The translations under genes and the position numbers were made by a program. This document shows, piece by piece, positions 9,080-47,810 of a stretch of DNA of 64,000 bases (the stretch's first letter is position 1; the number at the start of each line of letters is the position of its first letter). Below the pieces are notes generated by a model. The model did not search any database and was not told the origin of the DNA. It worked only from the letters and a program-made list of their open reading frames with translations. Origin of the DNA: Williamsia sp. 1135 (GTDB lineage Bacteria; Actinomycetota; Actinomycetes; Mycobacteriales; Mycobacteriaceae); assembly GCF_002095395.1 (NCBI RefSeq), contig NZ_MJEI01000107.1:372001-436000 (forward strand), in the 5' to 3' direction.

Positions 9080-10051
9080 GTGCGCATTCCTCTCGACCCT
9101 CGGCGCCGTAAGCGCAAGGTCAATCCCGATGGCACCATGTCGTTGGTCGACCACCTTCGCGAGTTGCGGACCCGGCTGCTGATTTCAGTGGCCGCCATCG
9201 CGTTCACCACGATCCTCGGCTTCCTGTGGTACTCCCACGGCGTACTCGGCATGGATTCCCTCGGTGACCTGCTGCGTCAGCCCTATTGCGACCTGCCGGC
9301 GTCCTCACGGGCGAACCTCACAACCGACGATGCCTGTCGGCTTCTCGCGACCGGTCCGTTCGATCAGTTCATGCTTCGCCTCAAGGTGGCGTTGACCGCA
9401 GGTTTCGTGATGGCCTGCCCGGTCTGGTTCTACCAACTCTGGTCGTTCATCACACCCGGTATGCACTCGAAAGAGCGCAAGTACGCGGTCTCCTTTGTCA
9501 CTGCCGCGGCCATCCTGTTCATCGGTGGCGCCATTCTCGCGTACATGGTGGTCAGCAAGGCGTTCGAGTTCCTGCTCACCGTCGGTGACAACGTCCAGAT
9601 CACGGCGCTCGCCGGCGACCAGTACTTCAACTTCCTGCTGCACCTGCTGTTGATCTTCGGCGTGAGCTTCGAGATACCCCTGCTGATCGTCTCGCTGAAC
9701 TTGATCGGGGTGTTGCCCTACGCGAAGCTGAAGGCCTGGCGCCGCGGCCTGAACTTCGGGATGTTCGTGTTCGCAGCCGTGGCGACCCCCGGTAACGACC
9801 CGTTCACGATGCTGGCGCTGGCGGTTGCCCTGTGCATCCTGCTCGAGTTCGCGATCCAGATCGCCCGCATCCACGACAAGCGCAAGGCCAAGCGGGAAGC
9901 GTTGGAGTGGGGCAACGTCAGCGACGACGAGGCCTCGCCGATCGCCCCCGCGTCACCTGCCGAACCGGCGACGGCACCCGTCCGATCGTCGGCGCCGGTG
10001 TCGGCCACCTCCTCGGCGAGCGGAGTCGATCACTACGATGACACTCTCTGA
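9080..10051 (+). CDS. tatC: Twin-arginine translocase subunit TatC
   Basis: 323 residues, with six membrane helices. It recognises the twin-arginine signal peptide. The N-terminus has the TatC pattern [15 protein letters not shown], then [22 protein letters not shown] and a polar Ala/Pro/Ser-rich C-terminal tail of about 50 residues. The GTG start is at 9080; the next in-frame ATG (9137) would cut off the basic RRRKRK leader but is possible. Its last 14 bases overlap the helicase gene, indicating coupling. Confidence 0.94.
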
Positions 10052-17227: not shown

Positions 17228-17638
17228 CTAGTCAGATGCGGTGAGCAAGCTCTGTGAGCCGAGGATGCGTGCGACCTTGATCTCGATGACCACTCGCCGT
17301 GGGTTGATCTTGGGCTGCCGGTACCGCAGCGCATAGCGCCTGACGCCCTCGGCAATCGAGTCGGCGTCGCGCTTTACGGCTGCCGCGCCCTCCAACGTGA
17401 GCCACCGCGGTCCGTCCACCTGGAAAACCGCCGCGTATCCGGCACGTCCGACGTTCTTCACCTTTTGGCTGCCCTCGAACGTGATCACCCGGACGATCTG
17501 CGCCTCGGAGTCGTAGGTGAACCCAACAGCAACGACGTGTGGCGTTCCGGCGGCTCGGACCGTGCTGAGGCTGCCGAGATGGCGGTCGGTGAGGAACTCG
17601 AGGGCCGCTGGGGTGAGGTCGTCTGCAGATTTGGCCAT
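17228..17638 (-). CDS. PPOX-class F420-dependent enzyme/heme-binding split-barrel protein
   Basis: 136 residues from the ATG at 17638. The split-barrel flavin-fold shows as FLTDRHLGSLSTVRAAGTPHVVAVGFTYD, then GRAGYAAVFQVDGPRWLTLEGAA and a C-terminal strand. It belongs to the small F420 or flavin-binding family that includes Rv2074, whose M. tuberculosis homologue reduces biliverdin with F420H2. The gene order (Rv2074, then Rv2073c and cobL homologues) supports that relation. A longer frame exists upstream but lacks homologous features. Confidence 0.85.
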   Translation of the reverse strand: MAKSADDLTPAALEFLTDRHLGSLSTVRAAGTPHVVAVGFTYDSEAQIVRVITFEGSQKVKNVGRAGYAAVFQVDGPRWLTLEGAAAVKRDADSIAEGVRRYALRYRQPKINPRRVVIEIKVARILGSQSLLTASD

Positions 17639-17756: not shown

Positions 17757-19778
17757 GTGATGGACCAGACCGTGGAAGCACTCGAACTCGTTCGTGGGCA
17801 GAATCTTTCCCTCGAATCGATCAGTGGTGGTGACGAGCAGATCGTCGTCGGCGTCGTCAGTGAGTTTCCCTCAGAGAGTTCGGCTCGGCCCGACGTGAGC
17901 ATCTTGCTCCTCGACAACGCCGGGAAGGTACGCACCAACGCTGATTTCGTCTTTTACAACCAGCGCGAGGCCGCCGGCGGTGCAGTACGTCTTGTGGAGC
18001 GAGCCCCGTCGCCGAACGATGCAACAGGGTCGCCAGGTGAGGTACTCGTCGTCGATTTCGCCTCGTTGCCTGCAGATGTCGACCGAATCGTCGTCGGTGC
18101 GAGTCTCGATTCCGATGCCGAGCTGACGTTCGCGAACGCCGACCAGCTGGAGATCAGCCTGCTGGTTGCAGAATCGTTGTCGCCGAGTGTCGTCTTCAAG
18201 GTCGCGGTGCAGGAACCGGTTTTGGCCCTGCTGTTCGGAGAGTTCTACCGGCGTGGCGACGAGTGGAAGTTTCGTGCACTTGGCCAGGGGTATGAGGGCG
18301 GGCTTTCTGCGCTGGCACAGGAGTTCGGGGTCGACATAGACGATGAACAAACAACCACCGACAGTTCCGGGGTAGTCGCAGAGATCGGTCCAATAGCGGA
18401 AGAGATCGACGAACCGGCGGCATCTTCGGACCTCGACGGCCTCCAGTCTGTCGACATGGAACCGATCGCTGATCCAGCTCCCATGACCATCAAGAAGGTC
18501 GTGCGGCCACCCAGGCTGCCTGAGTGGTCTTTGCGAAACGATCTGAACGACGAGGCCGAATGGGATCGGGCGCGGTTGTTCTCGGTGTCCGCGATCGGGA
18601 GTGGTGACGAGCGCGAGCGGCGCGCCGTGTCGGCACTGCTGTCGGTGATGAACGGGGTGCGGGAGTTCGGCCGAGAACTTGTCCGGCGAAGCAGTGGGCC
18701 GGCCGGCACGATCGAGACCTTCATCGAGCCCGAGTTCGAATGGAACGAGAAGAAGTATCGACCCGACGGCCTGATCCGAGTCACCCGTGGCGTGAAGCAA
18801 TGGACTGCGCTCGTCGAAGCAAAATCGTCAACGGCGAAGCTCGAGGACAGTCAGGTGGAGGTCTACGTCGACATCGCGCGGAAGCTCGGTTTCGACGCTG
18901 TGATCACGGTGAGCAACCAGCTGTTGGGTGCTCACGATCAACATCCGGTCACCATTGACAAGCGCAAATTGAAGAAGGTCTCACTACATCACCTGTCCTG
19001 GGATGAGATCCGTTCTGTTGCGATACAGATGTCGATGCACCGACAGGTCCAGGATTCGACACAGAGTTGGGTGCTGCGGGAGTTCGTCCGATACCTGCAG
19101 CATCCAAAGTCCGGGCTGCACGGCTTCACCGACATGGGACCGCAATGGGTCCAGGTCCGAGAAGCTGTGAAGACCCGGACACTGAATGTCGACAACAAGG
19201 GGGCCATCGAGGTCTGCAACCTGTTCGACCAGCTCGTTCGCCACATCGGCCATGACTTGTCTTGTCTGTTGAGTACCGATGTCCGCCCGATCTTCCCGCG
19301 TAATCGGCCTGACAGCACAAGCCGCATCCAGCAACTCGCCGACTCCGGGATGATGTTCGGATCCCTCCGCGTACCCGGCGCGACCGGGCCGCTGACTCTC
19401 GCCGTGGATCTGCGATCTGACACAGTCGAATGCTCGACTCTCGTCGACGCGCCTCGTGAGGGTCGGCCCGTGACGCGAGTGAACTGGATCGTCAAACAGA
19501 TGCCTGACGCCCACGTCGATACCCTCGTCGAGGCGGTGCTTCCGGGTCGGGCTTCCGCAAACGTCGGAGCACTGCTGGGCCAGCTACGTGAGTCGCCGGA
19601 TGCGCTGGTCCCGGCCGATGGCAAATTGCCCAAGCAGTTCAAGATCACTCGCGGCCACACGCTTTCTCGCAACCGCGGAAACGTCGTCATCTCGGCCAAC
19701 AAACTGGTCGAGGAGTTCTACCGAAACGTCGTGCAGGTTCTGCGGTCACCGAAGCCGGCGAAGCCCGCCAAGGGCTGA
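17757..19778 (+). CDS. TerD domain fused to a predicted PD-(D/E)XK nuclease
   Basis: 673 residues counted from GTG 17757 (ATG 17760 is equally possible). Residues 1-195 are a TerD domain of the variant type: DNAGKVRTNADFVFYNQ, then FYRRGDEWKFRALGQGYEGG, without the acidic GEGEGDDE loop of classical TerD. An acidic linker (196-245) leads to a restriction-endonuclease-like core: a helix with Glu near 285-287, YRPDGLIRV with Asp337, LVEAKSS with Glu354 and Lys356, then Gln366 in DSQVEVYVDIARKLGFDAVITVSNQ. The final 280 residues are unassigned. The gene sits between homologues of Rv2074 and Rv2073c, where M. tuberculosis has no such gene. Nuclease activity is predicted from the motif pattern only. 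DNA or RNA cleavage during stress or phage attack is an inference. Confidence 0.8.
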   Translation: MMDQTVEALELVRGQNLSLESISGGDEQIVVGVVSEFPSESSARPDVSILLLDNAGKVRTNADFVFYNQREAAGGAVRLVERAPSPNDATGSPGEVLVVDFASLPADVDRIVVGASLDSDAELTFANADQLEISLLVAESLSPSVVFKVAVQEPVLALLFGEFYRRGDEWKFRALGQGYEGGLSALAQEFGVDIDDEQTTTDSSGVVAEIGPIAEEIDEPAASSDLDGLQSVDMEPIADPAPMTIKKVVRPPRLPEWSLRNDLNDEAEWDRARLFSVSAIGSGDERERRAVSALLSVMNGVREFGRELVRRSSGPAGTIETFIEPEFEWNEKKYRPDGLIRVTRGVKQWTALVEAKSSTAKLEDSQVEVYVDIARKLGFDAVITVSNQLLGAHDQHPVTIDKRKLKKVSLHHLSWDEIRSVAIQMSMHRQVQDSTQSWVLREFVRYLQHPKSGLHGFTDMGPQWVQVREAVKTRTLNVDNKGAIEVCNLFDQLVRHIGHDLSCLLSTDVRPIFPRNRPDSTSRIQQLADSGMMFGSLRVPGATGPLTLAVDLRSDTVECSTLVDAPREGRPVTRVNWIVKQMPDAHVDTLVEAVLPGRASANVGALLGQLRESPDALVPADGKLPKQFKITRGHTLSRNRGNVVISANKLVEEFYRNVVQVLRSPKPAKPAKG

Positions 19779-19804
19779 CCGGAGACCGCCGGTTGCCCGT
19801 TTGG

Positions 19805-19810
19805 GATACT
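19805..19810 (+). promoter_or_regulatory. Leaderless -10 element of the SDR-cob operon
   Basis: GATACT lies six bases before the GTG at 19817. It would drive the coupled short-chain dehydrogenase, cobL, cobM and cobK genes as a leaderless transcript. It also supports GTG 19817 over the upstream TTG 19793. Confidence 0.4.
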
Positions 19811-19816
19811 CACCAG

Positions 19817-20575
19817 GTGAGCAATGGTCAGGTAGTGGTCCTGTTCGGTGGACGCAGCGAGATCGGGATCGAGGTCGCTGCGCGGATCGCCGCTGGTGCC
19901 ACGGTTGTGCTGGCGGCTCGGCGCCCTGATGACCTCGAGGAACAGCGCGAGCGCCTGACGAGCGAAAATGCCGCGGCGGTCCACACGGTGGAGTTCGATG
20001 CGAACAACACTGAGCAGCACGGCGCGCTGATCGAACAGATCATCGCCGAGCACGGCCGCATCGACGTCGCGATCGTCGCCTTCGGGATTCTGGGCGATCA
20101 GGCGCGCGCCGAGACCGATGTGACGCACGCACTGCAGATAGCCCACACGGATTACCTCGCGCAGATCAGCGTGCTGACCCCACTCGCCGCGACGATGCGT
20201 AGTGCCGCTCACGGCGACATCATCGTCTTTTCGTCGGTTGCAGGCGTGCGAGTCCGCCGCGCGAACTATGTCTACGGATCGACCAAGGCTGGCCTCGACG
20301 GGTTCGCGAGTGGACTGTCGGATGCCCTCCACGGCAGCGGAGTTCGCCTGCTACTCGTCAGGTCAGGTTTCGTGATCGGGAACATGACCAAGGATTTGAT
20401 GGCTTCAGGAGTCAAACCGGCCCCGATGTCCAGAACTGTGCCGGAGGTGGCCGACGCGGTCGTAGCCGCCTTGCATCGCGGAAAGAGCGTGGTCTGGGTA
20501 CCAGGCAAGCTCCGACCTGTCTTCTTCGTCATGCGACTACTCCCGCAGGCTATCTGGCGCCGGTTGCCGCGATGA
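19817..20575 (+). CDS. Short-chain dehydrogenase/reductase
   Basis: 252 residues. The nucleotide-binding glycine motif is FGGRSEIG, followed by the AARRPDDL region; the catalytic Ser is in FSSVAG and the YxxxK motif is YGSTK. It resembles the DprE2-like family and Rv2073c, its positional counterpart in M. tuberculosis. Substrate is unknown. The C-terminus (RPVFFVMRLLPQAIWRRLPR) is amphipathic and may touch the membrane. It overlaps cobL by four bases (ATGA), but a cobalamin role is not implied by its family. Confidence 0.88.
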   Translation: MSNGQVVVLFGGRSEIGIEVAARIAAGATVVLAARRPDDLEEQRERLTSENAAAVHTVEFDANNTEQHGALIEQIIAEHGRIDVAIVAFGILGDQARAETDVTHALQIAHTDYLAQISVLTPLAATMRSAAHGDIIVFSSVAGVRVRRANYVYGSTKAGLDGFASGLSDALHGSGVRLLLVRSGFVIGNMTKDLMASGVKPAPMSRTVPEVADAVVAALHRGKSVVWVPGKLRPVFFVMRLLPQAIWRRLPR

Positions 20576-36882: not shown

Positions 36883-38526
36883 TCAGGCGTTCGGGTTGGC
36901 ACCCGACCGAGGCTGATCACTGCTCAAAGTGGCAACGATCCGTCTGGCCTGTGCGCCGGCCGGATCGATGTGCTCGGCCGCCACCGACCACGGTAGACCG
37001 ACCCACGGGTCATGGGCGCGGGCCTTCTCGGTCACCGGAATCATCATCGTTCGATCCGCGATGGTGCTCACCAGGGGATCGCTGTCGTTGTCGTCGAGGG
37101 ATCCGGCGAACACAAACGCCCAGCCGAGTTCGCTTCCGCGATCTGCAATTCGGAGCAGCCTCGCCATCGCCCCGACGTCCCACCCGAACGGCAGATCTGC
37201 GATGACCACCACGCGGGTGTCGATGTCATCGACCTCGCCGGCCTGCAGCGCCATCTGCGTGAGGTCTATCGACGACTCCAGCACCGACAGTCGGTCGGCA
37301 ACGGACTCCGGCGCAGTGACCGCGGGCGCGGTGAGCACCGGCGACAGCATTTCGGTCATCGGTGCCAATGAGCCCGTCAGATCGAACACGTCGATCAGCA
37401 CCGTTCCACCGTTGGAGGTCCTCCGCGTTCCGGGGAAGGGCACCCGGGCGGCGACCACGAGTCGCAACACCAACGACGTCACAACGGATAGCACCGGGTC
37501 GCCGGTGTCGAGCACCCACAGCGGTCGAGCGATCGGTGTCGGCACGCAGAACGGAAGCCGCAGATCGCCGCGCTCGGGGGCGAACAACTCACCGATGCGG
37601 AGGCCACCTGCAGAAGGCGAACCGGCGTGGTTCCAGGCAGGCGACTTCCACGACGCCATCGCAGGCGGCAACTGCGGATCCAATGCAGCCAACTCCGCCA
37701 TCAACACTGCCGAGTCGGCGTCGAAACGACTTCTGGCCGACGTCACGAGGTCGTCGCACCGCTGCTGCGCGGCGGCTCGGGCGCGGTCGGCGGCAGGCGA
37801 GTTGCGTTGCGCAGGATCCGCCAGCAGGTCGCCGAGTTCTCTGTCGAGTCGGTCCATCGCAAAACCCTCGGCCTGGACGTACCCGGCGGCCGACCTGGCC
37901 GCATCCTCGAACACGACGTGGGCACGCGCGACGGCGGCGCCGTAGTCGGATCCCAAGGTGACCAGAGCCGGCGGCAGGGAATCGTCGCCGCACTGTGGCC
38001 CAACGGGTTGCGGGTCGGCGGGCGCCCGAGGCGGTACCTCCGGCGCATCATCGACCTCGACCTCGACGCCGTGCGCGGTCAGCAGCGCTGCGAGTCCGCC
38101 TTGATAGCCCTGTCCGAGTGCGCGCACTCGCCACCGTCCCGACCGCTGATAGAGCTCGAAGCACAACAGCGCCGTCTCGCCGTGGAGCGGGCGCAACGGA
38201 AACGAGTACTCGGAGTTGTCCGGCGCGCCGTCGAGTTCAGCCGTGAGGCCGGGCGCCAGGCCTACATCGGCATCACCGCTCACCGCACACAGCACGATCG
38301 CGTCAGGGGGCAGCGACCCCAGATCCACCACAATGCGGTGACCCTCGAGCCGTACCCCGGCCGTCTGTGGCTGGTTGTAGAAGACGACGCTGTCCGAATC
38401 GCTCGTCCGCAGATCCGGACCGACCACCAATCCGACCAGATCCGCTTCACCGATGCCACCGTTCACCGAGAACACCAACGTCGATGCCGCCACCGGCACG
38501 TTCTGACCGGGAACCAACTCGTTCAT
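36883..38526 (-). CDS. TerD-like domain with degenerate FtsK-like C-terminal domain
   Basis: 547 residues. Residues 1-155 are a TerD-like domain (SVVFYNQPQTAGVRLEG, LCFELYQRSGRWRVRALGQGYQGGLAALL) without calcium-loop acids. A helical, Ala-rich middle region follows (about 190-275). The last 250 residues have the pattern of the non-canonical FtsK-like ATPases found in actinobacteria: RLPFCVPTPIARPLWVLD, VVTSLVLRLVVAARVPF, TVLIDVFDLTG, and VVVIADLPFGWDVGAMARLLRIADRGSELGWAFVFAG. The Walker A position (LWVLDTGDPVLSVV) has no GKT/S, so ATP hydrolysis is unlikely. It is the last gene of the Ter operon, 22 bp after the double-TerD gene. The FtsK link is inferred from pattern. Confidence 0.75.
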   Translation of the reverse strand: MNELVPGQNVPVAASTLVFSVNGGIGEADLVGLVVGPDLRTSDSDSVVFYNQPQTAGVRLEGHRIVVDLGSLPPDAIVLCAVSGDADVGLAPGLTAELDGAPDNSEYSFPLRPLHGETALLCFELYQRSGRWRVRALGQGYQGGLAALLTAHGVEVEVDDAPEVPPRAPADPQPVGPQCGDDSLPPALVTLGSDYGAAVARAHVVFEDAARSAAGYVQAEGFAMDRLDRELGDLLADPAQRNSPAADRARAAAQQRCDDLVTSARSRFDADSAVLMAELAALDPQLPPAMASWKSPAWNHAGSPSAGGLRIGELFAPERGDLRLPFCVPTPIARPLWVLDTGDPVLSVVTSLVLRLVVAARVPFPGTRRTSNGGTVLIDVFDLTGSLAPMTEMLSPVLTAPAVTAPESVADRLSVLESSIDLTQMALQAGEVDDIDTRVVVIADLPFGWDVGAMARLLRIADRGSELGWAFVFAGSLDDNDSDPLVSTIADRTMMIPVTEKARAHDPWVGLPWSVAAEHIDPAGAQARRIVATLSSDQPRSGANPNA

Positions 38527-38548
38527 GACGCGAATGTATTCATCGGGG

Positions 38549-39958
38549 CTACTTCATGAAGTCGTTCGACAAGAACCGTTGCAGCTGCGGGACCGCCTCA
38601 CCGGGATGCTTTGCAGTGATGCCCTCACCGATCGCCTGCAGCTTCCAGGTGCCGTCCTCGCGGAACACCTTCGCCATGACCACGCCGGTGTAGGCCATTC
38701 CGCCCGCGAGGGTGTACCGCGCGAGCTCCACATTCGTCGTCTGGTCGACCAATCGGCAGAACGCGTTCTGCACCTGCTCGAACGTCTGGCCCTGGTAGGA
38801 GGTGACGATGAAGATGATCGCGTTGACGTGCATCGGGACGCGAGTGAGGTCGACCGTGACCACCTCGTCGTCGCCCTCGCCCTCCCCGGTCAGGTTGTCA
38901 CCGAGATGCCGTATCGATCCGTCCTTGGACGTGAGTTGCCCGTAGTAGGCGACATCGGCGAGTTGGGTGTCGGCATACATGACCGCTGAGGCGTCGAGGT
39001 CGATGTCGGCGCCACGGCTTCCGAACATCTTCTTGACCACGACGGGATCCCAACCGAGCCCCATCTGGATGTTGGTGAGTGCGACCCCACCGTCCTTCTT
39101 CAGCGAAACACGTTGTCCCTTGGACAGACTGACGGGTCGATTCTTGGTGAGACTGACCTCGGGCGGACTTGTCGGTGCCGGGGCGGCATAACCGGGCTGC
39201 TGGTTATAGGCCGGTTGCTGGTTGGGAGCGGGCTGCTGCGGAGGCGGGTACGCACCGGGCTGCGGTTGCTGCGGCGGGTAGTTCGGGGCCGGCGGTTGCT
39301 GCGGCGGATAGTTCGGGGCCGGCGGCTGTTGCGGCGGGTAGTTCTGCTGTGGCGGATGGTTCTGGGCTGGTGGCTGCGGGGCGACGGGCGCCGAGGGTTG
39401 CCGGGAGTAGCTCGGCGGAGGGCTGTTCCGCACCGAGGGAGGCGACGGCGCGGCCGCTGGGGCGGGTGCGTCGTCGACCGAGACGCCGTGGTCGGTCACC
39501 AGTGCGGCGAAACCGCCCGCATAACCCTGCCCGACTGCGCGGACCTTCCAGTCGCCACCGCGGCGGTACACCTCGAGTGCGATCACGATCGACTCACTCG
39601 ACAGACCGTCGATCCGGTATTCGTACAGCGATTGTCCGCCACCGCTGACGCGGGCGACCGGCGGCGCCACCGCGCCGAAGGTGCCGTTGTCGAGCGTGAT
39701 CACCGCTCGCACCTGGCTGATGTCAGCAGGGACGGCGCCCAGCGAGATGGACAGAGTTCCGATCCCGGCGCCGGCTTGCAGCGACACCCCCGGCCCGTTG
39801 GGTTGGTTGAAGAAGACGAAATCGGCGTCGGTTCGGACTTTGCCGTTGTCGGTCACCAGCAACGCGGACAGATCGCCCGCGGTGGCGAGGTCGACGGTGA
39901 TCTCGACCGTCGCCGCGTTCAGCGGGCCGTTTTGCCCTTTGACCAGAGTTGTTGTCAT
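38549..39958 (-). CDS. Double TerD-domain protein with Pro/Gln linker
   Basis: 469 residues from the ATG at 39958. The N-terminal TerD domain (1-175) is the variant type, close to that of the TerD-nuclease (LVTDNGKVRTDADFVFFNQ, YRRGGDWKVRAVGQGYAGG). A Pro/Gln/Asn/Tyr-rich linker (about 185-300) follows. The C-terminal TerD domain (about 305-469) is classical, with LGWDP, ADIDLDASAVMY and the Ca-binding loop GDNLTGEGEGDDE. The start overlaps the HAD gene stop by one base (TGATG). TerD domains bind calcium and are linked to tellurite, phage and envelope stress. Confidence 0.9.
   Translation of the reverse strand: MTTTLVKGQNGPLNAATVEITVDLATAGDLSALLVTDNGKVRTDADFVFFNQPNGPGVSLQAGAGIGTLSISLGAVPADISQVRAVITLDNGTFGAVAPPVARVSGGGQSLYEYRIDGLSSESIVIALEVYRRGGDWKVRAVGQGYAGGFAALVTDHGVSVDDAPAPAAAPSPPSVRNSPPPSYSRQPSAPVAPQPPAQNHPPQQNYPPQQPPAPNYPPQQPPAPNYPPQQPQPGAYPPPQQPAPNQQPAYNQQPGYAAPAPTSPPEVSLTKNRPVSLSKGQRVSLKKDGGVALTNIQMGLGWDPVVVKKMFGSRGADIDLDASAVMYADTQLADVAYYGQLTSKDGSIRHLGDNLTGEGEGDDEVVTVDLTRVPMHVNAIIFIVTSYQGQTFEQVQNAFCRLVDQTTNVELARYTLAGGMAYTGVVMAKVFREDGTWKLQAIGEGITAKHPGEAVPQLQRFLSNDFMK
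39264..39353 (-). repeat. Three 30-bp coding repeats in the TerD linker
   Basis: Three adjoining 30-bp units at 39264-39293, 39294-39323 and 39324-39353, the first two differing at one base, code for PAPNYPPQQP-type decapeptides. The third is more diverged. Copy number could vary by slippage. Confidence 0.75.
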
Positions 39959-40947
39959 CACCTGAGCCCTTCGTTGGGTGTGGAATTGTCGATGATCGAG
40001 CTCCGCTGTGCTTCGTCTACGCCTACCGCACCGGCGACCTGTGGAGCCAAGGCCGATTTGCCCGGTTCGTCGACGTTCACCATTGTGCCTGCCCGCATCA
40101 GCAGCCATGTCAGCATCTCCTCGGACGCCGCGAGGCCTCGCCCTTCGGTCACCGCCACATTCGAGTGGTTCCACCCGAGTTCTTCGAGTTCACCGTGCCG
40201 CGGACGGATGGCCTCGTCGGCGCCGACGAGCATCGGCTGGTCGAGCACACCGTCGCCCGCAGCGTAGGTGGATGACGGCACGTCGGCCAGCCGCACGCGC
40301 ACCTCGTCGACCGCGAGTTGTTTGGTCACCGGATCCGGCATCACATAGATCTTTCGCCCCTGGCGGGAGACATTCCAGCCCCGTTCGGCGGCCCAGCTCG
40401 CCCACGCCGGAACCACCTGCGGGGGAAGCAATTCGAGTTCGACGACGACGTAGCAGAAGAGTCCGTCGGCAATCCGCATCGTGCGCAGCCACGGCGCGCC
40501 GGCGGCGTCGGCACCGAGCCGCTCGTACACAGCGTCGACCCCGACGCCCAGCGTGCCGAGCAGGTCCGAGACCCGTCGGGACCACGCTTCGTCGCGGACC
40601 CCGTTCACCAGTATGTTGCCGCCGTTGCTGGTGATCGCGAAGCGCGGGGTGCCGATCGGCAGCGTGATCCGCCGGTACTGCTCGATGGTGCGGGTGGTCG
40701 TCGGCACCACCTCGGCGATCGCGGCCAACTCGATCAGCATCGACATCGCCGAGGGCGACATGAACGACTGCGGCCGGTCTTGATAGATCTCCACACAGTG
40801 CGCCGTGGCGGACAGCGCCGCGGCGGCGGCAGCGTCCGTAGCTCCCTCGGCGATTGCGGCAGCCGAGTAGATCAGGGTGCGATCGAGGTCGATCGTGGCG
40901 AGTGCACGTCCCGTGGACGGTGTCGCCACGGTGTCGAGTGTGTTCAC
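39958..40947 (-). CDS. HAD-superfamily phosphatase of the Ter operon
   Basis: 329 residues. The complete HAD active site is visible: DLDRT at residues 20-24 (nucleophile and acid/base Asp), ITSNGG for motif II, a Lys in PVTKQLAVDEV and GDGVLDQPML for the metal-binding motif. The cap layout is close to sucrose-phosphatase-like HADs. In Ter-linked operons such phosphatases are predicted to dephosphorylate a sugar- or nucleoside-like intermediate made by the neighbouring PRTases. It overlaps the PRTase_1 gene by four bases upstream and the double-TerD gene by one base downstream. Confidence 0.85.
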   Translation of the reverse strand: MNTLDTVATPSTGRALATIDLDRTLIYSAAAIAEGATDAAAAAALSATAHCVEIYQDRPQSFMSPSAMSMLIELAAIAEVVPTTTRTIEQYRRITLPIGTPRFAITSNGGNILVNGVRDEAWSRRVSDLLGTLGVGVDAVYERLGADAAGAPWLRTMRIADGLFCYVVVELELLPPQVVPAWASWAAERGWNVSRQGRKIYVMPDPVTKQLAVDEVRVRLADVPSSTYAAGDGVLDQPMLVGADEAIRPRHGELEELGWNHSNVAVTEGRGLAASEEMLTWLLMRAGTMVNVDEPGKSALAPQVAGAVGVDEAQRSSIIDNSTPNEGLR

Positions 40948-42080
40948 GAGACCTCTTTCACCAAACCCATACAGCTGTAGGCGAGGTCCGGGACGACCTC
41001 GACGGGAACGCCTCGGGCAGTCGCCAGAGCGCGGATGTGCTCGTGTTCCGGATCATCCGCCGTTCGTACCAGGATCATCCAGGGGACCCTGCGCAACAGC
41101 ACGCGGGTGGTCTCACCGACCCCTGGCTTCACGAAGTTGACCGACGAGATGCCGTGACTGCTACGGACCTCCTCGACCGAACGCCATCCGGACCAGGTCG
41201 GCGTGCGGTCAGAACGCTGGATCTCGTCCCGGCGGGTCGACGCCTCCGCTGTCGCCGAATCGAACTCGGCGGTCACCGCGTCGAGCAGAACGGCCGACAT
41301 GTCCTGCCCGGACAGCTCCGCGTAGAACTTGGCGCCATGGAAATCGTCAGCACCGATGAAGTCGACATTGAGGACTGTTCGCGAGATCAGACCGGAAACG
41401 GTCGAGTTCAGGCACGCCGACGCGATGAGGAAATCGTCGCGGGTACCGAATGTGCGAACGCACGACCCCGGGTCCGCGAGCACCGCCAGGTCCGGATTGA
41501 ACACCGGGCCACCGTCGGCGGACAAGGCATCGAGGGCTTCGGCGAGTTCTTTGGTGATCGCGCCCTTGCCGGTCCATCCGTCGACGAACACGACGTTCCC
41601 CGGATCGTGGTGGGCGGCCAGGTATTTCATCGCGTTCTCATCGATGCCCCGGTCGCGGACGATCGACACCGCATAGTGGGGGAGGTCCAGACCGTGCTGG
41701 TGCTGGGCCCAGCGACGCATCAACACACCGACCGGTGTTCCGGCTCTGGCCAGGGAGGTCAGCACCACGTCGGTACCGCGTTCCGCGAGAACCAGTTCGG
41801 TGACCGCGCCCACCGCGACAGCCAGCCGGTGCGCACTGTTTGCCAACACTCGCCCGAACAACTCCTGATAGGCGGCATCGGGCTGGAACTCGACGGGCAG
41901 CGACTCTGCGTAGTGGGCAAGGCCCGCCTGGATCCGCTGCTCCCGCGCGGCCACGTCGCCTTCGAGCGCCACCGAGGAGAGGTCCTTGAGGAGCCACTTC
42001 ACCTCGTCGGGGCCATAGCTGCCGAACTCGGGTCCGGTGAGTGGGCCCGGGGACACCCGGATGTCGCCACCAGGACTCAC
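40944..42080 (-). CDS. Ter-operon phosphoribosyltransferase (PRTase_1/StiP) with PELOTA domain
   Basis: 378 residues. The N-terminal domain has a PRPP-binding-like loop VVFVDGWTGKGAI at 163-175 and SLARAGTPVGVLMRRW, matching the family once called cysteine protease StiP and later reassigned as a phosphoribosyltransferase. The C-terminal 90 residues (SVNFVKPGVGETTRVLLRRVPWMILVRT through LAYSCMGLV) match the PELOTA_1 RNA-binding-like domain. It is predicted to act with the next PRTase in making a nucleoside-like compound; the real substrate is unknown. Four-base overlaps join it to both neighbours. Confidence 0.85.
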   Translation of the reverse strand: MSPGGDIRVSPGPLTGPEFGSYGPDEVKWLLKDLSSVALEGDVAAREQRIQAGLAHYAESLPVEFQPDAAYQELFGRVLANSAHRLAVAVGAVTELVLAERGTDVVLTSLARAGTPVGVLMRRWAQHQHGLDLPHYAVSIVRDRGIDENAMKYLAAHHDPGNVVFVDGWTGKGAITKELAEALDALSADGGPVFNPDLAVLADPGSCVRTFGTRDDFLIASACLNSTVSGLISRTVLNVDFIGADDFHGAKFYAELSGQDMSAVLLDAVTAEFDSATAEASTRRDEIQRSDRTPTWSGWRSVEEVRSSHGISSVNFVKPGVGETTRVLLRRVPWMILVRTADDPEHEHIRALATARGVPVEVVPDLAYSCMGLVKEVS

Positions 42081-43369
42081 GGCGTCTCCCTCGCTGCGCG
42101 GAGGGCAAGGTAATCGGTCCCCGGCACAACAACCAGTAAGACATCGATTCCCGCACCGCTGATGGTGTCGAGTAGTCCACCCGATGCCGTCAGCGCTTCG
42201 GTATCGGCGGGTGAATCGATGATCATCACCAATCTCGCTCCGGGATCGTCATGAGTTGCGTTGTACAGGTATCGATCTCGTGCCTCATCTGGTTCGGGAG
42301 CGATGAAATGGTACCCACGCCGCAGCGGATAACCCTCGTGATCGATCACGTGTGCGGGTGAACGCGTGGTGGTCTGACTCAAGATCGGGGCCTCGATGAA
42401 CTGGGCAAGACTCCCGGCCACGCGCTGGGGCAGATACATGAGTTCCTCGTGTCCGACCACGACGACCGACCTGGCCGGATCCAGGTGCCGGGCCACGACG
42501 CGGGCCACCTCGGAGATGGCCCCGTCGAACTGTGGCCAATCGGCCCGCCGGAAACCGTGGCGACCGCCGTCGGGAACCGACGCCGGCCACGGGACCTCCA
42601 GTCGTTCCACCGATCCTGGGTGCAGGGTCGTCGGCGAAGGTGTGGCAGCCGGCAATCCCACGACCCTCGCGGGCAGGCCTTCGGGGATATGGGTGCGACC
42701 CCGGGCCAGACTGACGAACTCGACCTCGGTGCCCAGTTCGTCCGCGCGCAGACGGCACCGGGTGATGTCTTCGTCGGTACGCATGTCGACCAGCGATGAC
42801 ACCAGGTACAGCGATCGGCTGTGGATGCGCTGCATCGACGAGATCGCGTCCAGGGCCGTCGCGCCCGTGGAGATCTCGTCGTCGACGAGCACTACGGGCA
42901 GATCGGTGCATAAGCTGTCCGGGTCCGTGGGCACGATCAGGTGGTCGGTGGCGTGGGAGTGACCCTCTTCGAATCGAGCGACCACCGGAACCGCGGAGTT
43001 CCCGCGCCGGGTCGACTGCAAGTAGTGCCCGGCATCCATCTGGTGCGCGACCGCATGTCCCAGGCCTGTGGCGGTCTCGGCGAACCCGAAGACCAGCGAG
43101 TCGGTGAGACCATGTGCGCGCAGGGCGGCGGTGGACAGCACGCCGAGATCGGCGGCGGCTGCGAAGATCACAGCAGGGGGGACCGGTATGTGTTTACCGA
43201 GCACGGTGGACACCCAGAGGTGAGCCCGTTTCGGGTTGCGCCGAAGACCCGGGCGTACCAGGTCTTCGACACGCCAGCCATTGACACCGGACACATGTTC
43301 GGCGCCGAGCCCGAAGTGCTCGCGTGCATACGACTCGGTCCCCGGTGCCGCACCGTTGCCGGCGATCAT
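42077..43369 (-). CDS. Ter-operon phosphoribosyltransferase (PRTase_2) with TRSP domain
   Basis: 430 residues. A clear PRPP loop VVLVDDEISTGAT lies at 159-171, with type I phosphoribosyltransferase features before it (FGFAETATGLGHAVAHQ, the flexible loop near STRRGNSAVPVV). The C-terminal TRSP domain carries its name motif at 335-338 (TTTRSPAHVID) followed by PLRRGYHF. These domains occur together in Ter-linked operons. It may join a base to phosphoribose or run in the reverse direction. ATGA overlaps connect it with both neighbouring genes. Confidence 0.87.
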   Translation of the reverse strand: MIAGNGAAPGTESYAREHFGLGAEHVSGVNGWRVEDLVRPGLRRNPKRAHLWVSTVLGKHIPVPPAVIFAAAADLGVLSTAALRAHGLTDSLVFGFAETATGLGHAVAHQMDAGHYLQSTRRGNSAVPVVARFEEGHSHATDHLIVPTDPDSLCTDLPVVLVDDEISTGATALDAISSMQRIHSRSLYLVSSLVDMRTDEDITRCRLRADELGTEVEFVSLARGRTHIPEGLPARVVGLPAATPSPTTLHPGSVERLEVPWPASVPDGGRHGFRRADWPQFDGAISEVARVVARHLDPARSVVVVGHEELMYLPQRVAGSLAQFIEAPILSQTTTRSPAHVIDHEGYPLRRGYHFIAPEPDEARDRYLYNATHDDPGARLVMIIDSPADTEALTASGGLLDTISGAGIDVLLVVVPGTDYLALRAARETP

Positions 43370-44571
43370 CGAAGCACCACCGCCGTCAGCAGGTCGACCA
43401 CACCGATCTCAGGTTGCAGCACTCCGAATGCCTGGGATCGGATGAGCGTCTTGACGGCCCAATTCCGATGCGGGCGCCGCTCGTTCATCTTGTTCCGGTA
43501 GGCCGACGCCAGTACACCACCCGTGTCGTCGACCCCCAGCACCGCAACAGCGTCGTCGTACTCCTCGTGTGGCACAGCGCTCATCGCGTGCACGACGTTC
43601 ACGTGCGACGGGTGGATGACGGTCTTGCCCTGCAATCCGTTCGCGCGGTCGAGAACCAGTTCGCGCAGCAGACCATCGAGATCGCGACTGACCAGATGTG
43701 TCCGGAATCGAACGGCATCGATCTCCTCGAAAGGCGTGTGGCGCAGCAACGGCCGGAACATCCGGTCGTGGGTGTTGTAGTACTCCCACACCGGCCCCGT
43801 GATCGTATGGCCGGTACCGTCGGCCCTGCCGAGCACGTTGACGATGGCACTGATGACCTCGGCAACAGGGTGGACGTCATAGATGGTCAGGTCGGGATCG
43901 CGCCGGATACCGAGCGCACCACACATGTCGGTGCCGCCGATCCGGACGGCCAGGATCTTGCCCCGATGTTTGTCGAGCACCTGCCTGATCGACTCCAGCG
44001 CAGCAGCCCGGGTCTCGAGATGGAGCACGGATGTCGACTCGATGATCGGCATCGCGTACAGCACTCGGCCGACCTGGGCCTGTGCGGCCTCGATCCGATT
44101 CAGATAATCGTCGCCGTCCACCCCTGTGAACTTCGGGAGCACGAACCCGGCGAGGCTGTCGACGCCGTCGCCGAGCCGTCCGAGCAATTCGTCGATTTGC
44201 TGTGGACGCCGGACCCGGACGAAGAGCAGCGGCGCTGCCTGGCGACCTGCCGCCAGCTCACGGAGTGTGTTGGTGAGGTTGGTGATCGCCGCGTCGACGT
44301 CACCGTCGGCGATTGCGTCCTCGAGGTCGATGACCATCGACGTCGAACCGCTCCGGCGCTGCCGCAGGATCAATTCGGCAAGTCGTTCGCGGCTGGCAGG
44401 AATGTACAACGTGGCGCCCAGGGCGACGCTCAGCAGTTCCGGAGGCGCGTCTATCCCGATCGGTTCGGGAACGCGGAAGAACAGTCGTTCGCGTTCTGCG
44501 TCGTCGAGTGCGGTGAAGTGCTGCAGTTGCTTCGTCCCCGCGGTACCGGCAGCGCTCGAGTCTGTTGTCAC
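43366..44571 (-). CDS. Ter-operon CitE/HpcH-like C-C bond lyase
   Basis: 401 residues from the GTG at 44571, whose GTGA overlaps the stop of the upstream gene. It is a TIM barrel of the citrate-lyase beta/HpcH type: ATLYIPASRERLAELIL, MVIDLEDAIADGD with the Mg-binding acids, FVRVRRP, VLPKFTGVDG, YAMPIIES, RIGGTDMCG and KTVIHPSHV. Such enzymes make or break carbon-carbon bonds in acyl-CoA or 2-oxo acid substrates. Here it probably adds or removes a carbon unit on the compound handled by the two PRTases and the HAD phosphatase. Confidence 0.87.
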   Translation of the reverse strand: MTTDSSAAGTAGTKQLQHFTALDDAERERLFFRVPEPIGIDAPPELLSVALGATLYIPASRERLAELILRQRRSGSTSMVIDLEDAIADGDVDAAITNLTNTLRELAAGRQAAPLLFVRVRRPQQIDELLGRLGDGVDSLAGFVLPKFTGVDGDDYLNRIEAAQAQVGRVLYAMPIIESTSVLHLETRAAALESIRQVLDKHRGKILAVRIGGTDMCGALGIRRDPDLTIYDVHPVAEVISAIVNVLGRADGTGHTITGPVWEYYNTHDRMFRPLLRHTPFEEIDAVRFRTHLVSRDLDGLLRELVLDRANGLQGKTVIHPSHVNVVHAMSAVPHEEYDDAVAVLGVDDTGGVLASAYRNKMNERRPHRNWAVKTLIRSQAFGVLQPEIGVVDLLTAVVLR

Positions 44572-45779
44572 CGCCTGGCCTCGTCCTTCATCTTGCTCAC
44601 TACTCCGGACACGAAGTCGGAGATGGCGCGCAGGTCCACCAGATACCCCCAATAGTCAGGATGCCGACCGGTCAGAGCCGCCACGGCTCGATCGACTCTC
44701 AAAACCTGTGCGTCCAGAACCGATCCCCATTGTTTGACCAAGCCGAGGTTGACGGCGAGCAATTGAGCATCCCGGATCTGAAACCGAACCCTACCGGCAG
44801 CTGCCGGCGGATCCCGCTGAACAACCCGAAGTTCATTCAAACGATCAGTGACCCCGTCGACCAATTCCTCGGCCTCGGACAAGTGCTTGCGAGCCCGGGT
44901 GATGGCCGCTGACGCCGATTCCGGGTCGGATCTGAGTACGGTTGCGGCCGAATCGATTTCATTGGATGCGCGGTCGAGTTCCTGCGCGCTGAGATGATCA
45001 TGACCCACCAGGTCACGAGAGCACTGTGCGCTGAATTCACGGAGCAGGGCCGAATACGCTTCCGGCATCCTGGCGCTGCGATTCCGGACCGCCGACAGCC
45101 GGGTACGGACAGATGCAAGCGCCGCACGGGCATCCTCGGCCTTGCCCGGAGCTGCGGCAATGGCCTGTTCCAGCTTCTTGACGGCCTCGCCGAGCGCGGC
45201 GGTCCTGGCCCGCAGTTCGGCCCGGTCGCCGCCCCCCTGGGATACCGAAAGCTGGGCCGCCTCGAGCTCCCTGAGGCATCGATCATGTTGCTGTACAGCA
45301 GTTGTCACAGAGGTGTACGCAAGCTGATCGGGAGGTAGACGAGCCAGCCGATCGGCGAGGCTTTTCGAATCGGCGCGCACCCGCGCCGCCTCCTCCGGTA
45401 CGGCCGCATAAGAGATCCTGGCGTGTTCGAGCTGGGTCGAATGACGTTCGTAGAACTGATCGAGCGTTCGAATCGAATCGGTGATCTGAGACATCGTGCG
45501 CTGATAGTCGTTCAGAGGAGCAAGTGGTCCGTCGGTCCCGCTGAGGGTCAGATACTGATTGATCGTCTCGTAGCAGGCGTCTCGGATGGGTACGAAGGCG
45601 CGCACCAATTCACCACCTGTGCCCAGGACCTCGGCGGCTGCGACGGAATCGCTGATGATCGACAAGCGCTGGTCGAGTTGGAGAAAGGCATTGACCATGT
45701 CGTTTCGGGCATGCTCGACGGCGCCAGTGGATCCGCCACCGGCACTACGGTCATCTCGTTGAAACCAGCCCCTGGCCAC
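44568..45779 (-). CDS. Coiled-coil protein heading the Ter operon, function unknown
   Basis: 403 residues, starting at GTG 45779. An ATG at 45788 is in frame, but it forms part of the TAGGAT box, which is seven bases before GTG 45779; a leaderless start there is preferred. The N-terminus WFQRDDR is followed by long helices without membrane segments, rich in Ala, Glu, Arg and Leu with heptad-like spacing (RAELRARTAALGEAVKKLEQ; DSAATVLRSDPESASAAITRARKHLSEAEELVDGVTDRL). I do not recognise the family. Overlap with the lyase gene ties it to the pathway. A scaffold or membrane-shape sensor, somewhat like TelA, is a guess. Confidence 0.7.
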   Translation of the reverse strand: MARGWFQRDDRSAGGGSTGAVEHARNDMVNAFLQLDQRLSIISDSVAAAEVLGTGGELVRAFVPIRDACYETINQYLTLSGTDGPLAPLNDYQRTMSQITDSIRTLDQFYERHSTQLEHARISYAAVPEEAARVRADSKSLADRLARLPPDQLAYTSVTTAVQQHDRCLRELEAAQLSVSQGGGDRAELRARTAALGEAVKKLEQAIAAAPGKAEDARAALASVRTRLSAVRNRSARMPEAYSALLREFSAQCSRDLVGHDHLSAQELDRASNEIDSAATVLRSDPESASAAITRARKHLSEAEELVDGVTDRLNELRVVQRDPPAAAGRVRFQIRDAQLLAVNLGLVKQWGSVLDAQVLRVDRAVAALTGRHPDYWGYLVDLRAISDFVSGVVSKMKDEARR

Positions 45780-45786
45780 ACCGCGC

Positions 45787-45792
45787 ATCCTA
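45787..45792 (-). promoter_or_regulatory. Promoter -10 of the Ter operon
   Basis: On the minus strand TAGGAT lies seven bases before GTG 45779. This is the only obvious promoter for the seven coupled genes that run to 36883. No inverted repeat for a known repressor was found in the 233-bp gap to the divergent terD. Confidence 0.4.
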
Positions 45793-46012
45793 CTGGGATG
45801 AGACGAACCGGCTCCGCCGGCGGATGAGGGGACCGGTCGTACTGCGGCCGGGGGAAACGGGAGTCATTCAATCGGTTCAGCGTTCGGCTTTGTCGCCCCC
45901 GTCGATGTCCACTTTCACGTACGGTTACTTCCAAGGACTGGTTCTGAGCAGAAGTTGCTCCGACCTCTGGGCCTCATCTACTCACGAAGACAAACTCAGG
46001 AAGGGTACTGAC

Positions 46013-46588
46013 ATGGGCGTCAGCTTGAGCAAGGGCGGAAACGTTTCGTTGACCAAGGAGGCTCCGAACCTGACCGCAGTGGCGGTCGGTCTCGGCTGGG
46101 ACGTGCGTTCCACCACGGGCACGGACTTCGACCTGGACGCGAGCGCGATCGGCGCCGGAGCCGACAAGAAGGTTGTTTCCGACCAGCACTTCATCTTCTT
46201 CAACAACCTGCGGTCCCCGGATGGCTCCATCGAGCACACCGGTGACAACACCACGGGCGAAGGCGAAGGCGACGACGAGGTCATCAACGTCGATCTGGCT
46301 GCGGTGCCGCCGAACATCGAGTCGGTCGTCTTCCCCGTGTCGATCTACGACGCCGATGCGCGTTCGCAGTCATTCGGTCAGGTCCGTAACGCATACATCC
46401 GGGTCACCGACCGTTCCAACGGCAACGAACTCGCCCGCTACGACCTGTCGGAAGATGCCTCCACCGAGACCGCGATGGTCTTCGGCGAGCTGTACCGCAA
46501 CGGCGCCGAGTGGAAGTTCCGGGCGATCGGTCAGGGTTACGCCTCGGGTCTCGCGGGCATCGCTCGTGACTTCGGCGTGAACGTCTAG
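46013..46588 (+). CDS. terD: Classical TerD family protein
   Basis: 191 residues, the normal TerD length, from the ATG at 46013 behind AGGAAGG. It begins MGVSLSKGGNVSLTKE and has LGWDV, the acidic FDLDASAIG, the calcium loop GDNTTGEGEGDDE and the end FGELYRNGAEWKFRAIGQGYASGLAGIARDFGV. TerD/TerE proteins bind Ca and are linked to tellurite resistance, phage inhibition and envelope stress. It is divergent from the Ter biosynthetic operon across a 233-bp gap and followed by a TerC-related gene. Confidence 0.95.
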   Translation: MGVSLSKGGNVSLTKEAPNLTAVAVGLGWDVRSTTGTDFDLDASAIGAGADKKVVSDQHFIFFNNLRSPDGSIEHTGDNTTGEGEGDDEVINVDLAAVPPNIESVVFPVSIYDADARSQSFGQVRNAYIRVTDRSNGNELARYDLSEDASTETAMVFGELYRNGAEWKFRAIGQGYASGLAGIARDFGVNV

Positions 46589-46630
46589 CCTTCCGGCGGC
46601 GGATGGCAACCACATAGAAGTACACTTGCG

Positions 46631-46666
46631 CACTATCGCGGAACCACCCCCGGTTCCGCGATAGTG
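46631..46666 (+). terminator. 15-bp stem-loop between terD and the DUF475 gene
   Basis: A perfect 15-bp stem (46631-46645 with 46652-46666) and a six-base loop. It may end the terD transcript. However, TACACT at 46621-46626 could be a -10 box for the next gene, in which case the hairpin would form the 5' leader of that message. There is no T-run. Which role is correct cannot be settled from sequence. Confidence 0.6.
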
Positions 46667-46694
46667 CTGTCACTGGCAAAACTAAGGAGCACGT

Positions 46695-47810
46695 GTGGTC
46701 ATCCGCGTATTCGGCATTTCGATCGCTGTCACGATCGTCTCGCTGGGCGTTGCGTACCTATATGGCGGGTGGACTGCGCTTGCTCTGTGCGCAATCCTCG
46801 GAGTCCTCGAGGTGTCCCTCTCCTTCGACAACGCGGTCATCAACGCGACCGTGCTGGAGAAGATGAGTGAGTTCTGGCAGAAGATCTTCCTCACCATCGG
46901 CATTCTCATCGCCGTCTTCGGCATGCGTCTGCTGTTCCCGCTGCTCATCGTGTGGGTCACGGCCGGACTGAATCCGGTCGAGGCCTTCGACCTCGCGATG
47001 AACGTCCCTGAGGAGGGTTCGGGTCAGCAGTCCTACGAAGAGATCTTGACTGCGGCACACCCGCAGATCGCGGCCTTCGGCGGCATGTTCCTGTTCATGC
47101 TCTTCCTCAACTTCATCCTCGAAGACAACGAGATCAAGTGGTTGACGTGGCTGGAGCGGCCGCTTGCCGTCATCGGCAAGCTCGACCAGCTGGCCGTCGT
47201 CATCGCCGGCGGCAGCCTGGTCCTGATCGCAGAGTTCCTGGCTGAAGACGACCAGATCTCGACGGTCATGGTCGCCGGAGTGCTCGGCATCATCACCTAC
47301 ATCACGGTCAACAGCCTGGGCCAGTTGTTCCACACCGAGGAGCTCGCAGCAGAGCACGACGAGGCGGTCAAATCGGGGGGACCGTCCCAGCTGGCGAAGG
47401 CCACGGGCAAAGCCGGGTTCTTCCTCTTCCTCTACCTCGAGGTCCTCGACGCGTCGTTCTCGTTCGACGGTGTCATCGGTGCCTTCGCGATCACGGCGGA
47501 CCCGATCATCATCGCCCTGGGTCTGGGCTTCATCGGCGCGATGTTCGTTCGGTCGATCACCGTGTACCTCGTGCGGGCGGGAACGCTCAACGAGTACCGG
47601 TACCTCGAGCACGGAGCGCACTGGGCCATCGGAGCTCTCGCGGCCATCTTGTTCTTCTCGATCAAGTGGCACATCAACGAGATCATCACGGGCCTCGTCG
47701 GCGTGGCGTTCATCGGCGCGGCCGCGCTGTCGAGCATCGTGGCCAATCGTAGGGAAGCAGCAGAGTCCGGCAGCGATACGTCCGAGAAGGATTCGCTCAC
47801 CGCCAAGTAG
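46695..47810 (+). CDS. TerC-superfamily (DUF475) integral membrane protein
   Basis: 371 residues with about nine membrane helices. The start is GTG 46695 behind AAGGAG. The paired intramembrane motifs LEVSLSFDNAVINA (near residue 38) and LEVLDASFSFDGVIG (near residue 250) are typical of TerC-like proteins and suggest metal binding or transport within the membrane. TerC relatives interact with TerD/TerB and some export manganese. The C-terminal tail is short and charged. It stands next to terD but is separated from it by the hairpin. Confidence 0.88.
   Translation: MVIRVFGISIAVTIVSLGVAYLYGGWTALALCAILGVLEVSLSFDNAVINATVLEKMSEFWQKIFLTIGILIAVFGMRLLFPLLIVWVTAGLNPVEAFDLAMNVPEEGSGQQSYEEILTAAHPQIAAFGGMFLFMLFLNFILEDNEIKWLTWLERPLAVIGKLDQLAVVIAGGSLVLIAEFLAEDDQISTVMVAGVLGIITYITVNSLGQLFHTEELAAEHDEAVKSGGPSQLAKATGKAGFFLFLYLEVLDASFSFDGVIGAFAITADPIIIALGLGFIGAMFVRSITVYLVRAGTLNEYRYLEHGAHWAIGALAAILFFSIKWHINEIITGLVGVAFIGAAALSSIVANRREAAESGSDTSEKDSLTAK

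Follow-up and report, generated by a model that had tools for sequence, protein, structure and literature searches.

A Williamsia gene that joins a TerD domain to a predicted PD-(D/E)XK nuclease, and its relatives in other actinobacteria

The TerD-nuclease gene

A stretch of 64,000 nucleotides from the soil bacterium Williamsia sp. 1135 (contig NZ_MJEI01000107.1; the whole stretch is called the window from here on) carries on its plus strand a gene (17757..19778; 673 amino acids, GTG start) whose product joins an N-terminal TerD domain via an acidic linker to a predicted PD-(D/E)XK nuclease domain, which is followed by a helical connector and a second folded domain. Judged from the sequences compared, this fusion is an unnamed one that is found in several groups of actinobacteria. 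Full-length relatives exist, and the GTG start is backed by one of them (locus L030), in which the GTG is kept and the next codon, ATG in Williamsia, is no start codon. The nearest named record, from W. soli, has a protein of 99% identity. An earlier interpretation made from the letters of this DNA (the sequence-only reading) had placed here an open reading frame with the segments YRPDGLIRV, LVEAKSS and DSQVEVYVDIARKLG, and all of them were found where it had put them.

The sequence-only reading had also noted an acidic linker behind the TerD domain. The linker (18345..18542, plus strand, residues 197-262) indeed has a net charge of -9, though the TerD domain is itself more acidic (-20); residues 431-673 are basic (+8). 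The linker evolves fast, being 30-38% identical to those of L030, L031 and L032, as compared with 59-95% for the other three parts of the protein. Against the same three relatives the nuclease has a ratio of non-synonymous to synonymous substitution rates (dN/dS) of 0.04-0.06 and the C-terminus one of 0.04-0.11; TerD has 0.08 and 0.15 (undefined for L031), and the linker, where its ratio is defined, 0.32-0.49. The comparison with L029 (nuclease 0.48, C-terminus 0) involves very few changes, the two genes being too close, and in those with L014 and L033 (0.18-0.38 or undefined) synonymous sites are near saturation. On these substitution patterns the gene is under purifying selection. In Pfam only TerD matched the 673-residue protein above the cut-off, and in NCBIfam and PADLOC the protein had no match.

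The nuclease domain

The nuclease domain (18543..19046, plus strand, residues 263-430) was modelled with AlphaFold2 as part of residues 261-673 (predicted local distance difference test, pLDDT, 80.9). The model has the alpha-beta-beta-beta-alpha-beta core of the PD-(D/E)XK superfamily, with Asp337 (18765..18767), the putative catalytic aspartate of a PDG motif, and Glu354-Ala-Lys356 (18816..18824), the ExK motif, in place; the restriction-endonuclease fold that the sequence-only reading had assigned is thus what the model predicts. That reading had singled out Asp337, Glu354 and Lys356 for an alignment of homologues, and the three residues proved to be invariant, both in 20/20 aligned relatives and in all 53 site-covering rows of a 55-row set. 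The same 53 rows keep Gln366-x3-Tyr370 (18852..18866), a QxxxY motif which we take to be a resemblance to RecB-type nucleases. Two rows of the set, L104 and L019, are truncated and do not cover the active site; the set does not include L127, which is the same as L109, or further copies of the locus in the window, nor L010-L013, which come from the same genomes as L029-L032, or the weak partial matches L105 and L106.

Fold matches of the nuclease model include MspJI, PaqCI, FokI, McrC-containing entries, AF1548 (1y88), which we take to be Mrr-like, and the nucleases Can2 and Card1. With AF1548, MspJI and FokI the domain shares the nuclease core and the D-ExK motif; it differs from them in its partner domains and in that no curated family (Pfam, NCBIfam, PADLOC) reaches its cut-off on it. 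VRR_NUC, considered as a named family for the domain, gave a sub-threshold match and was set aside, and a profile built from alignment A2 and run against PDB sequences gave two chance-level matches and nothing more. The predicted PD-(D/E)XK fold and active site are well supported by the model and the conserved residues. We consider it very probable that the TerD-nuclease protein is an active nuclease.

The C-terminal domain

Behind the nuclease, a helical connector (19047..19175, plus strand, residues 431-473 in the AlphaFold2 model) carries a GFxxMGxxW motif in which Trp464 is conserved in 55/55 rows and Met460 and Gly461 in 54/55 each. The region beyond it, left unassigned in the sequence-only reading, contains another folded domain (19176..19757, plus strand, about residues 474-667; pLDDT 87.7 when modelled alone), an alpha/beta domain for which a YbjN or type III secretion chaperone-like fold is predicted and whose fold matches are mainly chaperone-like proteins among the 50 listed. 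Homology to YbjN was not borne out by profile comparison: against an alignment of 24 YbjN-family sequences the hhalign probability was 0.1%. YbjN and type III secretion chaperone-like (TY-chaperone) domains are reported to occur in conflict systems (PMC9503650); the C-terminal domain, going by its predicted fold, may resemble them.

The nature of this domain bears on the possibility that the protein is a modification-dependent, type IV-like restriction enzyme, in which the C-terminal domain would read modified or foreign DNA, the nuclease would cut it and TerD would only tune or locate the enzyme. The nuclease matches to MspJI, PaqCI, FokI and McrC-containing entries would fit such an enzyme, as would the basic residues 431-673, the patchy and partly plasmid-borne occurrence of the gene and the finding that 10 neighbouring open reading frames of the window, scanned with Pfam, include no DNA methyltransferase family. 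However, the C-terminal fold matches are mainly chaperone-like, no modified-base reader was recognised among the 50 listed, and Pfam finds no DNA-reading domain in the protein. We regard a type IV-like enzyme as unlikely.

The TerD domain and calcium

The TerD domain (17781..18326, plus strand, residues 9-190), probably the sensor part of the protein, matches PF02342 with an expect value (E) of 5.4e-34 and 117.7 bits, well over the curated cut-off of 25.3 bits, as the sequence-only reading would have it; relatives of solved structure are 3ibz and 2kxt. The same reading saw in TerD a possible calcium sensor. The acidic loop GDNTTGEGEGDDE of the window's stand-alone TerD, a loop of canonical TerD which we assume to bind calcium, is not kept in the TerD-nuclease protein. 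It is also lost in five other Williamsia-type and six Rhodococcus rows, and partly retained in Streptomyces fused rows (the comparison covered 21 of 38 fused rows plus L127; the mis-framed stand-alone row L084 was left out). Because of the loss of this loop calcium sensing was rejected as the default function of the fused TerD. Of the sequence-only reading as a whole, the TerD domain and the PD-(D/E)XK nuclease in one gene are supported, as is the one-gene unit, and a role in defence is suggested; its calcium sensor found no support.

The succession of charges from TerD (-20) over the linker (-9) to the C-terminus (+8) suggests that a DNA-binding face may be covered by TerD. Taken by itself, the TerD part matches five phage records at 29-31% identity. 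A TerD domain of Streptomyces silvae (L048:8001-9788) is followed by another kind of C-terminal region, about 420 residues long and with no match in Pfam; TerD may be attached to several kinds of output domain.

Distribution and origin of the fusion

In a sample of the phylum, 20 of 396 genomes gave a match, two of them weak and partial; the others comprise fused forms and a bare form, which consists of the nuclease and the C-terminal domain without TerD (about 450-545 residues with the longest start). Fused forms are named in Williamsia, Pseudonocardia, Streptomyces, Actinacidiphila and Rhodococcus, and the bare forms occur in other parts of the phylum. Outside the phylum, one of 119 genomes in a phylum sample taken around a Planctomycetaceae genome and one of 111 in a sample taken likewise around a Deinococcales genome matched, both without TerD upstream, and three further genomes from other phyla gave no match. 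One bare-form nuclease gene has as its neighbour a Schlafen group 3 helicase (L112:5380-7221) that also shows a GIY-YIG match below the threshold.

In a tree of 53 rows (L104 and L019 were left out besides those excluded from the 55-row set) the 38 fused rows lie on one side of a branch with 100/97 support and the 15 bare rows on the other. For this tree, which has no established root and in which a few of the branches to bare rows are long, the simplest reading is that TerD was joined to the nuclease once.

Eleven plasmids, six of Streptomyces and five of Rhodococcus, carry the fused form. One of the 11 records has no annotation, and in the other 10 the product is called only "TerD family protein", so that the databases conceal the nuclease. 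No description of a TerD-nuclease fusion was recognised in the literature searched, a statement that does not extend to the 2012 survey by Anantharaman, Iyer and Aravind with DNA-processing in its title, which may mention TerD-linked endonucleases.

The chromosomal site in Williamsia

Five of the nine genomes of the genus, that of strain 1135 included, possess the TerD-nuclease gene. In the other four only 57-74 bp separate the flanking matches, as compared with about 2.16 kb here, and the two flanking genes adjoin each other. These are, upstream, a pyridoxamine-phosphate-oxidase-like gene (17228..17638, start approximate, minus strand, PF01243) and, downstream, a short-chain dehydrogenase gene (19793..20575, plus strand, Pfam), which is followed by cobalamin-type genes. 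The TerD-nuclease gene in Williamsia is thus a clean one-gene presence/absence unit at one chromosomal site. Among the 25 neighbour clusters listed (at least 5 loci, open reading frames of at least 100 amino acids) there is no partner gene with a fixed position beyond Williamsia-type synteny. Both findings agree with the "one-gene device" of the sequence-only reading.

PADLOC matches of other genes in the window, namely HamB (2.4e-28, the best of several broad helicase matches) for a DSHCT-type helicase at 9825-12839, mad2 (5.6e-10) for a tetrapyrrole methylase gene and C3a206 (0.0045) for a hydrolase gene, were read as general similarity because Pfam gives these genes other names. In a genome of the same family a small gene, helix-turn-helix-like by eye, lies on the same strand about 70 bp downstream of the TerD-nuclease gene (L123:7047-7361).

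The chromosomal position amid housekeeping genes, together with the purifying selection, would suit a housekeeping nuclease for DNA repair or recovery from stress, connected with Ter-dependent tolerance of stress and not with defence against phages, and so would the lack of a clear defence enrichment around 22 other loci (see below). Against this stand the patchy occurrence in the phylum, the presence or absence within one genus and the plasmid copies, all of which fit an accessory role; we regard a housekeeping function as improbable.

Plasmid copies and defence genes

On three of the five Rhodococcus plasmids an operon of the cyclic-oligonucleotide-based anti-phage signalling system (CBASS), composed of CD-NTase, E1-E2, JAB and NucC, lies within 2.6 kb of the TerD-nuclease gene: about 1.0 kb downstream on two plasmids and 2.5 kb upstream on the third. 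It was identified by annotation on all three, by PADLOC on two and by similarity on the remaining one. Relatives of this CD-NTase (E 1e-20) occur in 6 of 72,556 plasmid records, a count in which other cyclase families would not show. The TerD-nuclease gene lies outside the CD-NTase operon, which has a NucC of its own. This proximity, as far as gene order can tell, suggests a defence role for the TerD-nuclease, as the sequence-only reading had proposed; a general excess of defence genes around the family was not clearly found. The 127 genes that neighbour 22 other loci matched 25 PADLOC families at E 1e-15 (mad3 in three genes, the others in one each, many being models of one helicase kind), as compared with two families in a control of 119 genes, for which 20 stretches were taken out of 13 of these genomes; neighbour genes of at least 3.6 kb had been removed from both sets. 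A small defence excess around these loci is conceivable; family counts do not give the number of distinct genes.

On plasmid pLP337 of R. qingshengii the CBASS operon and the TerD-nuclease gene have between them a module of two genes (L126:4718-7056) whose PADLOC matches, to LeoA/LmuB and BnzB, are weak. Its second gene occurs on 10 Rhodococcus plasmid records. The module P0002/P0003, found beside the TerD-nuclease gene on two plasmids, was judged to be separate from it: of the 10 plasmid records with the second gene, 8 are outside the eleven fused-form plasmids. R. ruber plas2 (L196, 5469-13491), which is not one of the plasmids with the TerD-nuclease, has a CBASS operon of the same type; behind it come an HD-domain gene and a subunit of a type I restriction system.

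Four of the five Rhodococcus plasmids, one by a partial match, have near the TerD-nuclease gene a RES/helix-turn-helix pair, which we take to be of the toxin-antitoxin type; six of six Streptomyces plasmid regions viewed show no constant partner. The RES pair and the juxtaposition of an acidic TerD and linker with a basic C-terminus could indicate a toxin-like nuclease that is silenced by its own TerD and serves, independently of Ter signalling, to kill the cell in a programmed way or to maintain a plasmid. Against such a toxin speak the bare form, which is common (15 tree rows), and the neighbour clusters listed, which contain no partner among open reading frames of at least 100 amino acids, a size above that of small antitoxins. 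We consider a silenced toxin very unlikely.

The link to Ter

About 17 kb downstream of the TerD-nuclease gene the window contains a Ter locus (36883..47810; Pfam scan) encoding TerD proteins, StiP, PRTase_2-TRSP, C-C_Bond_Lyase, TerD and TerC/DUF475. PRTase_2 exceeds its cut-off in 13/13 fused-form genomes tested and in the four Williamsia genomes without the fusion, and in none of 16 bare-form genomes (two sub-threshold); TerD was found in none of 17 bare-form genomes. For 61 relatives, with the own genus and the fused forms counted in, the rate is 27. The pattern, taken from gene content, fits TerD being useful only where Ter exists, but a single fusion in a lineage with Ter would produce it as well. 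With known Ter systems the fusion shares the TerD match over the Pfam cut-off and the company of PRTase_2; it differs in that its gene lies outside the ter locus, a nuclease is attached and the acidic loop is lost.

To our knowledge, there is as yet no settled account of the signal for TerD or of the protection that ter genes give against phages, colicins and tellurite. Can2 and Card1 (type III CRISPR, clustered regularly interspaced short palindromic repeats) and NucC (CBASS) are signal-gated PD-(D/E)XK nucleases, and the logic proposed here, a sensor part governing such a nuclease, would be the same. In the fusion, by analogy, TerD would take the place of the CARF domain of Can2 and Card1; no match to a cyclase model was found among 8 neighbouring open reading frames of the window. 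According to two papers (PMC7824862, PMC7159879), TerD may sense a nucleotide- or nucleoside-type signal.

Proposed function

The explanation that we prefer is a self-contained, regulated PD-(D/E)XK nuclease, gated by Ter and encoded by a single gene; we give it an even chance of being right. The fusion is probably a nuclease triggered by stress or by phages, and we infer both the gating and the defence. For the gating of the nuclease by TerD through the Ter system the arguments on the two sides seem to us about balanced; that defence is its main role we hold only tentatively, with slightly less confidence. The acidic TerD domain would hold the nuclease in check or fix it to Ter complexes, and a report of stress or infection from the Ter system would set the nuclease free, perhaps by way of the nucleoside-like product that has been proposed for the PRTase_2 operon. 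Most likely, the C-terminal domain would make a dimer or bind a protein or DNA target. Once released, the nuclease would cut the DNA of the invader or of the infected cell and thereby stop one or the other, in a manner similar to that of Can2, Card1 or NucC, with TerD replacing their sensor.

Several observations weigh against a Ter-gated defence nuclease. Foldseek alone gives no PDB match at E 0.001 for the model of either the nuclease or the C-terminal domain. By Pfam, the neighbours of the gene in the window look like housekeeping genes, and a clear excess of defence genes over the matched control is missing around the 22 other loci. On the third CBASS plasmid two genes stand between CBASS and TerD-nuclease, and on the three CBASS plasmids the gene occurs in two versions, being identical on two of them, which reduces three arrangements to two. 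Copies of the nuclease part were found neither in 50,697 phage records at E 0.01 nor by a pattern search of viral contigs. The association of the fusion with PRTase_2 is confounded by descent: the fusion arose once, and the lineages concerned possess Ter in any case. Finally, the bare nuclease occurs in genomes without TerD, so that gating by TerD is not needed for the basic role of the nuclease.

In a bolder version, which we consider rather doubtful, TerD is a ligand-gated switch. Upon infection or stress the PRTase_2/C-C_Bond_Lyase/StiP operon would produce a nucleoside-like second messenger of a Ter pathway, and the fusion, as the effector of that pathway, would bind it through TerD, whereupon its nuclease would be released and cut DNA. 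If this were true, the fusion would represent a Ter-based counterpart to the signalling of CBASS and type III CRISPR; with the enzymes for the signal present in the host beforehand, a single gene would be enough for it to spread.

The finding would matter for the Ter field. A TerD domain joined to an easily measured enzyme output offers a direct assay, by DNA cutting, of whether TerD senses metals or candidate products of Ter. A natural comparison is provided by a nuclease family that exists both with TerD and without it.
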